A stretch of 54,492 nucleotides of DNA from a bacterium. GTDB taxonomy: Bacteria > Patescibacteriota > Dojkabacteria > JAKAPS01 > JAJZLI01. The number at the start of each line of letters is the position of its first letter. Positions within the stretch are counted from its first letter, which is position 1. The notes under the pieces are model-generated. The model made no database searches. It was not told where the DNA came from and saw nothing but the letters and a program-made list of their open reading frames with translations. This document shows, one piece after another, positions 30,489-42,782 of the stretch. A program made the translations under genes and the position numbers. The stretch spans positions 1-54,492 of the forward strand of contig JAJZIL010000006.1 in the NCBI GenBank assembly GCA_021810605.1, read 5' to 3'.

Positions 30489-31454
30489 ATGAATGACTCA
30501 AACCTATTTAATAGTTCAGATCATACAGTAGCTCCAAATACTCAAGATAATACAGTTAATAATAATATGACCACGGATGCTTCTACATTAGATACAACAG
30601 CTACACCTGATTCTAATAATCCAACTTTACAAGAAGAATCTCAAGTTACAGATAATAATACTCAAGAAAATATAGGAAATAATGGATTAGATCCTGAAAA
30701 AGACTTAGGAATTAATAGTAGTACTAATAATACTCAAGAAAATATAGGAAATAATGGATTAGACCCTGAAAAAGACTTAGGAATTAATAGTAGTACTAAT
30801 AATACTCAAGAAAATATAGGAAATAATGGATTAGACCCTGAAAAAGATTTAGGAATTAATAATAATCAAGGAAACATGGAAGAATCAAACAATCCAAAAC
30901 CTCTTGATACATCAAATATCTCTTTTTCAACTAATACAATAGACTCTAACTCTTACAGTACTACAGAAAATTCAATACAAACATCTGTTTCAGATAGTAC
31001 TTCTAATACCTTTGTAGATAATAATGTTTCTAGTACTACAAATACAGAAACAATAAAAACTCACTGGAATTGGGCAGGATTTATGTTTAATTGGTTATAT
31101 ATTGCTATTTTTAATGGGAAATCTGGGTTATTCTATTTTCTTATGACCTTTATTGTATTAATGACAGGAGAAATAGTCGTAAATATATTGAAACTAATTC
31201 TAATTTCTACTTCATACTCTTATATTATCACTATTATAATTACTATAATATCAACAATTATAATACCTGTTTATCTTGGATTAAAAGGAGAATCAATTGT
31301 TTGGAAAAAAGGTAAATTTGAGGATCAAAAAGAATTCTATACAGCACAAAAATATTTATCTAAATTAGGACTTGTATTCTTTGAAATCATATTTACTATT
31401 ATGATAATTTTTTTCATAGTAATAATTCTATTTATTAACTTACTACATCTCTGA
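30489..31454 (+). CDS. Asn-rich repeat protein with C-terminal membrane domain (DUF2628-like)
   Basis: A 321-residue protein. Residues 1-190 are low complexity (Asn, Thr, Ser, Asp, Glu) and include three 24-residue tandem repeats (NNTQENIGNNGLDPEKDLGI plus SST or NNQ). The C-terminal 120 residues begin with HWNWAGFMFNWLYIAIFNGK, the tryptophan-rich entry seen in DUF2628-type membrane proteins, and continue with three membrane helices and a polar loop (KGESIVWKKGKFEDQKEF). The polar part is likely cytoplasmic or surface exposed, since there is no signal peptide. Function unknown. Confidence 0.72.
   Translation: MNDSNLFNSSDHTVAPNTQDNTVNNNMTTDASTLDTTATPDSNNPTLQEESQVTDNNTQENIGNNGLDPEKDLGINSSTNNTQENIGNNGLDPEKDLGINSSTNNTQENIGNNGLDPEKDLGINNNQGNMEESNNPKPLDTSNISFSTNTIDSNSYSTTENSIQTSVSDSTSNTFVDNNVSSTTNTETIKTHWNWAGFMFNWLYIAIFNGKSGLFYFLMTFIVLMTGEIVVNILKLILISTSYSYIITIIITIISTIIIPVYLGLKGESIVWKKGKFEDQKEFYTAQKYLSKLGLVFFEIIFTIMIIFFIVIILFINLLHL
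30654..30869 (+). repeat. Three tandem 72-bp repeats inside a coding gene
   Basis: Units 30654-30725, 30726-30797 and 30798-30869 are nearly identical at the DNA level (differences such as GAT/GAC and the last codons), each encoding 24 residues. The high identity including silent sites indicates recent duplication; the 72-bp unit preserves the frame. Confidence 0.92.
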
Positions 31455-39284: not shown

Positions 39285-39752
39285 TTAAAAAGGTAAATCA
39301 TCTAATGAATCTAACTCTTCTATTTCTACATCTTTTACTTTTTTACTAGCAGATTTAGAATTTTTATCACTAATATCTTCATTACTATCAAAGTCAGTAT
39401 CAACAGATACGTTTTTAGATAAAGGTGTTAATACCATCATATTATCAGCTCTAATTTCTGTTCTATTATAATTAACGCCCTCTTTCTCCCATTTTCTATT
39501 TCTAATTTCTCCCTCTATATATACTTTCATACCAGTTTTCAAAATTTGAGAACATATCTCTGCAAGCTTATTCCAAGCAATAATATTATGAAATTCTGCA
39601 ATCTCTTGTACATTACCTTCTGCATCCTTCCATGAACTATTTGTTGCTATTGAAAAACTACATACAGGATTTCCTTTTGGAGTATATCTTAATTCAGGAT
39701 CTCTAGTAAGATTTCCAATTAAAAGAGCTTTGTTTAATGATCTTGATGCCAT
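39285..39752 (-). CDS. ssb: Single-stranded DNA-binding protein
   Basis: A 155-residue SSB. The OB fold occupies about 1-110 (SLNKALLIGNLTRDPELRYT, FHNIIAWNKLAEICSQIL, GMKVYIEGEIRNRKWEKEG). A charged linker follows, and the acidic C-terminal tip DSLDDLPF binds repair partners. It lies between rpsF and rpsR, with 3-nt and 18-nt gaps. Confidence 0.96.
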   Translation of the reverse strand: MASRSLNKALLIGNLTRDPELRYTPKGNPVCSFSIATNSSWKDAEGNVQEIAEFHNIIAWNKLAEICSQILKTGMKVYIEGEIRNRKWEKEGVNYNRTEIRADNMMVLTPLSKNVSVDTDFDSNEDISDKNSKSASKKVKDVEIEELDSLDDLPF

Positions 39753-39770
39753 AATATTAAATAAAATAAA

Positions 39771-40109
39771 TTAAATATTTTTTTGTACTTTTACATTACT
39801 AAAATTTTCTACAGAAAATACACTGAATCTTATAATTTCAGACATTATTCCTAATGCTTTATTTATTTTCTCTATATTTTCAGTAACAAATTCAGAATTT
39901 GATTCTAGATTATATATAATATAGTACCCTTCTGTATGTTTCTTTATTGGATATGATAGATATCTTTTACCCCAATTATCCTGATGAGCTAAAGAAAGCC
40001 CTCCACTAGAAATTATATCATCTATTTTACTAAGGATGCTTACTCTTACGTTCTCAGGTAAAGAAGGTTTAAGGATTAACATCAACTCATACTTGTACTT
40101 ACTTTCCAT
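39771..40109 (-). CDS. rpsF: Ribosomal protein bS6
   Basis: A 112-residue bS6: KYELMLILKPSLPENVRVSI, DNWGKRYLSYPIKKHTEGYY and the final helix/strand IMSEIIRFSVF. The start is the ATG at 40109; an in-frame TTG at 40118 is less likely. S6 pairs with S18 on the 30S platform and is encoded in the same operon. It has its own promoter 25 bp upstream. Confidence 0.95.
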   Translation of the reverse strand: MESKYKYELMLILKPSLPENVRVSILSKIDDIISSGGLSLAHQDNWGKRYLSYPIKKHTEGYYIIYNLESNSEFVTENIEKINKALGIMSEIIRFSVFSVENFSNVKVQKNI

Positions 40110-40133
40110 AATTATCAATTATTATCTAGTTAA

Positions 40134-40168: not shown

Positions 40169-40537
40169 CTATAATAATTTCTCTAATTCTTTCTTTAAAT
40201 CTTCTGGGATATTTAAATTCTTAATACTTTTTTTCTTTTTAACAATATTATTTGCATTATTAAAAGATTTTTCTTTATCCATATTAAGATGCTCTCTATA
40301 AAAAAATGCTATTCTATCTCGTAATGATACTAAATCTTTGATATATTTTAGTTGATAAAATGTTTTTGCAAAAAAAGTTGCTAGAACAATAAGTATTATA
40401 AGAAAGATAAGTGATGAAAAAAGTTGTAATGAAGTTATACTTTCATATGCTAAATAAGTAAAATATATTCCTAGAATAAAAAAAATAAACATCTCTAAAG
40501 ATTTTATTTTAAAGAAACTACCTATTTCCTTCTTCAT
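40169..40537 (-). CDS. Small membrane protein at end of cytochrome b-like operon
   Basis: A 122-residue protein with two membrane helices (about 14-32 and 38-58) and a positively charged C-terminal half (KKKKSIKNLNIPEDLKKEL). There are no Cys residues and no heme-binding motif. It overlaps the subunit IV-like gene by 20 nt, so it is made with the cytochrome complex and is a candidate accessory or assembly subunit. The family is not recognised. Confidence 0.65.
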   Translation of the reverse strand: MKKEIGSFFKIKSLEMFIFFILGIYFTYLAYESITSLQLFSSLIFLIILIVLATFFAKTFYQLKYIKDLVSLRDRIAFFYREHLNMDKEKSFNNANNIVKKKKSIKNLNIPEDLKKELEKLL

Positions 40538-41468
40538 AATATCTTTTCCATATAAGCTTATACACTGGAATATAGTAAGGGATTCTATTTATTATAGGAA
40601 GAATTGGAACTAAGGCAAGTAGGAATATTAGAAAACTAAATATAGAGAATGCAATTAAATCTGCATTTGAAGAGTTACCTATTGCTGGAATTTGATAGAG
40701 ACTAGTATAGATACCTAGCCACCAAGGTCCAGGATAAGCTCCAGTCTCTTTTAAAATTCCCCATTGATCTCCTGACATTTGATATTTATTTGCAAGATTC
40801 TGTAGAGGAGCTCCTTGTAAAAATAATAGTTTATTCTGATAATTATAAGTATATGTACTATTATTCCCAGCAAGATTAATATCCAAAAGTTGTGCAAAAA
40901 TTCCAGATTTTGCCATATTAAGAGTAGTACTAACAAGTGTATATACTGGATAATATTTATGAGAAAGATAATTACTACTATAATGAACTTTATTCTGAGA
41001 TAAATAATTATAGTAAGAAGTTTCTATTAAATTTAGACTTTTACTATCATACTTTTGAAGATATAAAAAATATTCAAAAGGTTTTTTAAGACTATGATCA
41101 ACAGAAGCTTCCATTGAAAGAGGTTTTAGAAAAAACACATTTATAGGATTTATTGGAACTGTAATCTTTTCTATATCCTCTGGAGAAAAAATATATACTT
41201 GCTGAGATTCACCATTATTATTATATGGATATCCATAAGTCTCAATTTGACTCTGTCCTAATATATTTCTCATCTCTACTTGTCTAAATCCTACAGGATG
41301 ATTATTAGCATATGATTTTATGGATAAAGGTTGCATTTTAGGAGATTGAAAAACTAGTGCAAGAACTACAACTAATACTAGTACTGCTAAAAATGTAATT
41401 AAAAATTCTTTAATAAGATCTGACTCTTTTGTTTTATATTTTTTCTCGTTTTCCATTTTTACTATCAT
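40518..41468 (-). CDS. Cytochrome b C-terminal/subunit IV-like protein with large insertion
   Basis: A 316-residue membrane protein. An N-terminal helix (EFLITFLAVLVLVVVLALVF) is followed by the segment QSPKMQPLSIKSYANNHPVG. About 190 residues of Asn/Tyr/Ser-rich sequence lie outside the membrane, then a second membrane part begins PGPWWLGIYTSLYQIPAIGN (compare the PEWYFxPxYQxLRxxP loop of b6f subunit IV and cytochrome b) and ends in one long helix (LIAFSIFSFLIFLLALVPIL). There is no Cys. The insertion is unusual. It overlaps the cytochrome b-like gene by 35 nt (23 nt if the internal ATG at 41456 is used). It likely forms the Qo-side half of a split cytochrome b. Confidence 0.7.
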   Translation of the reverse strand: MIVKMENEKKYKTKESDLIKEFLITFLAVLVLVVVLALVFQSPKMQPLSIKSYANNHPVGFRQVEMRNILGQSQIETYGYPYNNNGESQQVYIFSPEDIEKITVPINPINVFFLKPLSMEASVDHSLKKPFEYFLYLQKYDSKSLNLIETSYYNYLSQNKVHYSSNYLSHKYYPVYTLVSTTLNMAKSGIFAQLLDINLAGNNSTYTYNYQNKLLFLQGAPLQNLANKYQMSGDQWGILKETGAYPGPWWLGIYTSLYQIPAIGNSSNADLIAFSIFSFLIFLLALVPILPIINRIPYYIPVYKLIWKRYYEEGNR

Positions 41469-42051
41469 ATTCTATTGGAGGAACTACACCTCTACGCCTT
41501 ACAAAAAATAAATGTAATCCCAATAAGCCTACTATTAACAAAGGAAGTATTACTACATGCAATCCATATAACTGAGAATTATCTAAAATATTAATGAAAC
41601 CTGTCACTCCAATTGCATTCATTGCATCTTTAGCCTGTACCTGATTCCATTGAGCAAAAAACCCTCCTCCTAAAAGGTATCCAATAAAAGCTTCGAACAT
41701 TGATAAACCAAATAGCATAACACCTAAAATCCAAGTTAAAAACCTACCTTCTCTCCAACCTGCCATGAAGAATATCGATATCATATGTACAATCATAAAA
41801 AAGAAAAATACTTGTGCTCCCCAAAAATGGATAGATCTAAAAAACAAACCCCACTCTGAATATTGATACCATAATGGTCCTTCTAAAACCATAATTACTC
41901 CTGATATTATAAGTATAACAAGACTTGCCATAGTCAGAACCCCAAACATATAGACAAATGAGGATACATATGTAGGCAACTCTTCTGGAAGCATTACATC
42001 CAAATCTAAATCTTTTCTTACAAATTGTTTGATTTTCCTACTTAGATTCAT
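41434..42051 (-). CDS. Cytochrome b6-like N-terminal four-helix protein
   Basis: A 205-residue protein with four membrane helices. Two heme-ligand pairs are spaced as in cytochrome b6: H75-x13-H89 (in RSIHFWGAQVFFFFMIVHM) and H165-x14-H180 (YGLHVVILPLL to LHLFFVRR). The cytochrome bc1 second pair is normally x13, so x14 points to the b6 type. No Cys equivalent to the covalent heme c-type site is present. It should carry two b hemes and shuttle electrons across the membrane. The ATG at 42051 is preferred to the TTG at 42075; it overlaps by 14 nt the end of a 39-residue upstream gene. Confidence 0.87.
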   Translation of the reverse strand: MNLSRKIKQFVRKDLDLDVMLPEELPTYVSSFVYMFGVLTMASLVILIISGVIMVLEGPLWYQYSEWGLFFRSIHFWGAQVFFFFMIVHMISIFFMAGWREGRFLTWILGVMLFGLSMFEAFIGYLLGGGFFAQWNQVQAKDAMNAIGVTGFINILDNSQLYGLHVVILPLLIVGLLGLHLFFVRRRGVVPPIEYDSKNGKREKI

Positions 42052-42157
42052 CTTTTTTATTTTTTTTACTTCCAAATGATGGATATGGTAAGAACAAAGC
42101 TACTATAAAAACTATAATAATTAATATATATATAATGATATCAGTATATAAAGACAT
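42038..42157 (-). CDS. 39-residue single-helix membrane peptide upstream of cytochrome b
   Basis: Minus-strand frame ATG (42157) to TAG (42038): an N-terminus MSLYTD, one hydrophobic helix (IIIYILIIIVFIVALFLPYP) and a charged tail SFGSKKNKKDESK. The stop overlaps by 14 nt the ATG of the cytochrome b6-like gene, a coupling arrangement that supports real translation. Its topology recalls the tiny single-helix subunits (PetG, PetL, PetN) of b6f complexes or other cytochrome accessory peptides, but there is no sequence identity that proves this. Confidence 0.55.
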   Translation of the reverse strand: MSLYTDIIIYILIIIVFIVALFLPYPSFGSKKNKKDESK

Positions 42158-42203: not shown

Positions 42204-42782
42204 ATGTATAGTATAAATATATATATATTCCATTTAATAAATAACCTTGCCACAAATAAGTATATAAATTTCTTTTTTTCTTTTTGTGCACAATATTTGA
42301 TATTTATATTTTTAATACTTGTAATTATAATCTGGTTTTATAAAAAACCATTATCAGAAAATATTGATAATAAAAGGATATTTATGTTATCTGTATTCTC
42401 ATCAGTTATATCATGGTTAATAATAGATAAACTTTTGGGAGCTATATATTATGAAAATAGACCTTTTGTAATACTCAAACATGTAAATTTACTATTCCAC
42501 TATACTGCTAATAATTCCTTTCCCTCTGATCACTCTGCAGTAACAATGGCTCTTGCTTCAATGATATTTATATATAATAAAAAACTTGGTTGGGGATTCA
42601 TATTTTTATCTATATTAATTGGATTTTCTAGAGTATTCTCTGGAGTACATTATCCCGATGATATAATAGTTGGATTTTTATCTGGAATATTATCAACATA
42701 TATAATATATTTACTGAGACATAAACTTGAGAGTATAATGAAAATTGGAATTAATATTGCAGAAAAAATACATTTAGGATAA
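42204..42782 (+). CDS. PAP2-family phosphatase (undecaprenyl-diphosphatase-like)
   Basis: A 192-residue polytopic phosphatase with the three PAP2 motifs: KLLGAIYYENRP (KxxxxxxRP), PSDHS (PSGH-type, catalytic His) and SRVFSGVHYPDD (SRxxxxxHxxxD). About five membrane helices. BcrC-like members recycle undecaprenyl diphosphate for wall synthesis. It lies divergent from the cytochrome operon with a 46-bp gap, and its last six bases overlap the 3' end of RNase P RNA on the other strand. Confidence 0.9.
   Translation: MYSINIYIFHLINNLATNKYINFFFSFCAQYLIFIFLILVIIIWFYKKPLSENIDNKRIFMLSVFSSVISWLIIDKLLGAIYYENRPFVILKHVNLLFHYTANNSFPSDHSAVTMALASMIFIYNKKLGWGFIFLSILIGFSRVFSGVHYPDDIIVGFLSGILSTYIIYLLRHKLESIMKIGINIAEKIHLG

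Follow-up and report, generated by a model that had tools for sequence, protein, structure and literature searches.

A split cytochrome b6-like cassette, candidate for a Rieske-independent electron-transfer complex, in Patescibacteria and Bacillota

We find that one contig of 54,492 bases (C17; the window, by which we mean the whole stretch of DNA that was analysed), from a genome of 745,818 bases on 19 contigs (96% complete, GC 24%), carries three overlapping minus-strand genes, B, D and E (42051-40169; overlaps of 23 and 20 bp), encoding a cytochrome b6-like diheme subunit, a subunit-IV-like partner and a small protein with two predicted helices. B-D-E is not a canonical b6f or bc1 complex. 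We tentatively favour a Rieske-independent, quinone-linked cytochrome b complex that would deliver electrons to an acceptor on the outer face of the membrane, a reading that is plausible though short of probable. The initial annotation of this DNA had described a cytochrome b6/subunit-IV-like module split over two genes, with an extra domain outside the membrane and with neither a membrane Rieske protein nor a cytochrome c in the window; the description is supported, and the absence holds genome-wide. Of the three results named in that annotation as counting against it, none was seen.

The diheme core and its partners

B (41434..42051, minus strand; 205 aa), read from the ATG at 42051, has four predicted transmembrane helices, and its only His residues, at positions 75, 89, 165 and 180, form the predicted heme-ligand pairs H75/H89 (x13) and H165/H180 (x14), just as first proposed. 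All four are invariant in the homologues collected (37/37). B scores above the cut-off for PF13631 and PF00033 (Cytochrom_B_N_2, 1.7e-18; Cytochrome_B, 6e-14), all of its PDB sequence matches are cytochrome b or b6, and a structure modelled with 11 homologues (pLDDT 71) retrieves only cytochrome b in Foldseek among the matches listed. By sequence and predicted fold, B is a four-helix cytochrome b with two predicted bis-His b hemes, and the b bundle anticipated in the initial annotation is thus predicted for the first subunit only. The x14 spacing of the second pair, first read as typical of b6 rather than bc1, is not specific to b6, since the QcrB sequences that we found in Bacillota share it. 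A profile of the B family gives canonical QcrB 84-90 bits vs 147-344 bits for members, and the best NCBIfam model for B is ExtP (NF040969), at 70.3 bits, under its cut-off of 290. An in-frame TTG upstream at 42075 would yield a 213-aa product; the end coordinate of 42157 assigned earlier falls upstream of the start codon.

D (40518..41456, minus strand; 312 aa, with a possible in-frame upstream start at 41468) has one helix near each end, at residues 18-36 and 267-285. Application of the positive-inside rule to the sequence places its charged ends in the cytoplasm, with the two helices flanking a region of about 205 residues outside the membrane. A large outside region had been noted before, at about 190 residues, and its enrichment in Asn and Tyr is confirmed (9.8% N and 10.3% Y vs 7.6% and 4.9% in the proteome). 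The segment PGPWWLGIYTSLYQIP, which starts at residue 242 and marks the end of the outside region, contains PGPWW in place of the Qo motif PEWY/PDWY, with loss of the acidic residue; a review relates the residue at this position to quinone type and to the potentials of the cofactors (PMC9162462). P-G-x-x-W-L is conserved among D homologues, and in a distant second Bacillota cassette (L132:6428-8324, with E, D and B homologues) GPWYL replaces PGPWW. The third C-terminal helix is missing, such that D has two where the canonical protein has E-G. The outside domain is conserved at many Pro and Gly positions, but the alignment contains no conserved Cys, His or Met, and thus there is no sign there of a bound metal or second redox center. 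AlphaFold modelling of D with 11 homologues reached a pLDDT of 51, and no fold search was based on it. Neither B nor D contains Cys, as had been pointed out, and nor does E.

D is probably a diverged subunit IV, an assignment based on gene order, natural fusions and a weak profile match. In other Patescibacteria B and D are fused, with D directly after B, in one protein of about 430-590 aa, the G166 version having 462 aa. An hhalign comparison with four Bacillota subunit IV sequences sets the PGPWW-helix of D in register against their PDWY-helix F (P 0.0019, probability 14%), against 0.4 for a reversed-profile control. D has no meaningful match in Pfam, NCBIfam or the PDB (the last searched with a single sequence and a profile), to an unrelated family or otherwise, and PF00032, the C-terminal half, has no match anywhere in the window's genome; we therefore regard homology to subunit IV, as first suggested, as likely but short of proven, with gene order, fusions and topology in its favour and the profile evidence weak.

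E (40169..40537, minus strand; 122 aa) is a member of the cassette that adds to the two genes originally recognized. It has no family match, and a short two-helix gene lies 3' of D in the split cassettes of relatives and several Bacillota as well; beyond E, no conserved neighbour gene adjoins the cassette. About 50 bp past the end of E come rpsF and ssb (39285..40118, minus strand; outside the module) and then rpsR, all named from ORF translations. A PAP2-family phosphatase gene (42204-42782) is divergent from the cassette, with a similar gene in the same place in G001 and G002, and an ORF at 30489-31454 encodes tandem copies of NTQENIGNNGLDPEKDLGINSS followed by a hydrophobic C-terminal part. 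The GC contents of B, D and E are 32, 28 and 20%, highest in B, relative to a coding mean of 27% in the window. We considered a contaminated contig and think it unlikely, given that these values lie around the coding mean and that the cassette recurs in 7/8 genomes of the GTDB family.

Distribution and history

B is present in 9/97 near genomes, and within the window's GTDB family every cassette is of the split form. A search with a D profile is positive in 14 of 380 genomes drawn from across the phylum and, within the class to which one Bacillota bearer belongs, in 13 of 300, three of the latter at E near 0.001 and doubtful; a single protein search of a plasmid collection with a Bacillota D gave no match. 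The split architecture characterizes the window's GTDB family and Bacillota, while fused forms are scattered among Patescibacteria. A third form, in two Patescibacteria (L089:8877-10658 and L088:7257-9026), has an extra N-terminal helix fused ahead of B and D, and a small gene resembling that helix lies upstream of a Bacillota paralogue (L129, 9183-9425). Presence of the cassette is patchy, and its flanking genes vary among relatives.

A single Patescibacteria clade is rejected on the tree of B (AU p 7e-5). Split Patescibacteria sequences cluster with orthologues and paralogues from Bacillota. Two Patescibacteria sequences with N-terminal extensions group with the Bacillota paralogues, and the remaining fused ones form a deep branch. 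This non-monophyly, on a tree with long branches, points to transfer between Patescibacteria and Bacillota, probably more than once. We found no description of a B-D-E family in the open PMC literature. From sample codes, our guess is that several close relatives come from acid mine drainage.

Redox partners in the genomes that carry the cassette

For COX1, cytochrome bd, Rieske, PF00032 and ApbE, the absences reported here come from HMM searches; all others come from motifs. The window's genome contains no membrane Rieske protein; its lone Rieske domain is a 104-aa soluble protein with no predicted helix, encoded inside a SUF-like cluster, and across the window's order Rieske proteins are short, soluble-size forms only. 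Outside the window's class, nine bearers that are 91-100% complete gave no Rieske match in a search that was positive in 10/14 control genomes. The window's genome also has no COX1 and, by motif, no cytochrome c-like CxxCH protein, multiheme c-type cytochrome or cupredoxin signature. It is nonetheless not respiration-free: contrary to the lack of a respiratory chain implied at the outset, it encodes NDH-2 (PF07992 and NDH2_C) and cytochrome bd subunits I and II. A UbiA-family protein is encoded as well, and no heme synthesis motifs were found.

At another locus (G000:C18:45762-46896; L061:5762-6893), a 151-aa protein that has four helices, two His pairs and a weak DUF4405 match adjoins an FAD/NAD oxidoreductase and is possibly a second transmembrane flavocytochrome of the ferric-reductase type. 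A CDGSH iron-sulfur protein is encoded beside an FAD/NAD-binding reductase (G000:C9:43940-44826; L050:3940-4823).

Among 18 Patescibacteria bearers, COX1 occurs in seven, cytochrome bd in the window's genome only, and neither in ten. NDH-2 is found throughout the window's GTDB family (8/8 genomes), in two of them just below the cut-off; three of these relatives (G001, G002 and G006; 92-95% complete) carry the module and neither COX1 nor bd, and the one genome of the family that lacks the module, G005, has cytochrome bd. A full reading of G006 by motif turned up no candidate of the c-type, cupredoxin, AOX-like or membrane-Rieske kind. With the window's NDH-2 as query, six other bearers yield proteins of 24-29% identity, at which level their identity as NDH-2 is uncertain, and G008, G009, G200, G326 and G399 yield no match. 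Since G008, G200, G326 and G399 carry the module with no NDH-2 match, COX1 or bd, an NADH-quinone-cytochrome chain is not general among bearers.

ApbE is present in 10/10 fused-type bearers and, in G008, G009 and G360, lies on the same contig as the module, about 3-16 kb away. It is adjoined in G008 by an FMN-binding protein together with a weak ferric-reductase-like fragment, and in G360 by a ferric-reductase-like gene, an FAD/NAD reductase and an FMN-binding protein recognized by eye only. This association with the fused module is suggestive only. ApbE is absent from the window's genome and several relatives, and we rejected an ApbE/FMN link as a general mechanism since it would not serve the window's genome. 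In an eLife study, extracytosolic flavinylation was underrepresented in the candidate phyla radiation, although partial NQR/RNF-like flavinylation clusters were reported there (PMC8238504).

A candidate electron path and its alternatives

The closest counterparts are QcrABC, the menaquinol:cytochrome c reductase of Bacillota, and b6f (PetB/PetD), in which a split b6-like gene is likewise followed by a subunit IV gene and the cytochrome b, to which B is homologous, carries the four heme His at the same x13 and x14 spacings. By ligands and predicted fold, B-D-E shares with bc1, b6f and QcrABC a diheme four-helix cytochrome b; unlike them, it has no Rieske partner, no cytochrome c1/f/c domain, no PF00032 match and no PDWY/PEWY acid, and it has two C-terminal helices rather than three, the outside region of about 205 residues and an extra small subunit. 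Canonical QcrABC forms a separate operon in some Bacillota genomes that also bear the cassette. ExtP, a b-type cytochrome of the selenite/tellurite (ext) operon, is the top NCBIfam model for B but at a score far under its cut-off, in a genome with no multiheme c-type cytochromes by motif. The PetAB (cytochrome b-Rieske) of 'Candidatus Parcunitrobacter nitroensis' is another bc-type complex in a Patescibacterium with NDH-2, yet it is reported with a Rieske protein and a neighbouring tetraheme cytochrome c (PMC5220378), neither of which is found here.

In our preferred reading, B, D and E would together make a membrane complex that takes the cytochrome b half of b6f/bc1 as its base and does without the Rieske protein. 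The two b hemes of B, held by the four invariant His, would span the membrane, and D, to judge from fusion, gene order and motif, would complete the wall of a quinone site. Its loop of about 205 residues may occupy, on the outer face, the place where the Rieske head docks in a canonical complex. NDH-2 would reduce the quinol pool, from which electrons would travel by way of the hemes to an acceptor located in the envelope or beyond the cell; Fe(III), a flavin or a host-side carrier are candidates for this acceptor. We infer quinone use from the habit of the family and from NDH-2 in several relatives with no oxidase of the types searched, and outward electron exit from the enlarged D domain on that side. 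With the high-potential Rieske branch missing, a bifurcated Q cycle of the bc1 kind is unlikely. Uptake of quinone and heme from outside may be needed, as the genome shows no heme synthesis by motif and no demonstrable quinone synthesis. Acidophilic Alicyclobacillus relatives, a group to which the Bacillota bearers may or may not belong, reduce Fe(III) (PMC8790237).

The same hemes could run the other way, with B-D-E feeding quinone from an outside donor such as superoxide, Fe(II) or a host carrier, a direction like that of E. coli cytochrome b561 CybB in principle. The lack of any conserved partner protein beyond E, and the occurrence of the module where no NADH dehydrogenase matched, fit this direction, but B belongs to the b6/bc1 rather than the b561 family, and relatives with NDH-2 but neither COX1 nor bd need an exit for electrons, not an entry; we judge it unlikely. 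The four bearers that lack NDH-2 matches, COX1 and bd alike, together with the conserved Pro/Gly positions of D, would also suit a non-respiratory envelope task, such as that of a redox sensor or of an enzyme with its active site in the outside domain. D has no Cys here, and its outside domain offers no conserved His/Cys/Met site at which catalysis or metal binding could take place, which makes such a task about as unlikely, or slightly more so.

A normal quinol-oxidising bc-type complex, with its Rieske and cytochrome partners supplied in trans or too diverged for detection, strikes us as more improbable still. Some Bacillota bearers do encode a Tat-type Rieske protein and the separate QcrABC operon, but the nine near-complete Patescibacteria yield no Rieske match in a search that succeeds in most controls, the helix-less Rieske protein of the window's genome sits in its SUF-like cluster, and both the altered Qo motif and the enlarged D loop depart from the type. 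That B-D-E is a decaying, functionless remnant of a horizontally acquired complex is very improbable: patchy presence and differing flanking genes might be expected of one, but the frames are open, the starts overlap and the four His are invariant across long branches.

Returning to the Rieske-independent complex, one may extend it to a separate class of cytochrome b, with an expanded subunit-IV loop at the Rieske dock, that acts as a quinol:extracellular-acceptor oxidoreductase, serves some Patescibacteria as their sole quinol exit and has been exchanged with Bacillota; taken whole, this is possible, on the doubtful side. Cytochrome bc and b6f complexes are textbook machines defined by their Rieske partner, and a conserved family that keeps the diheme core and does without that partner would reveal the capacities of the cytochrome b half on its own. 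Some of the smallest known bacteria would gain from B-D-E an electron route unseen in their annotation, and the same cassette in Bacillota makes its function testable in larger, possibly cultivable organisms.
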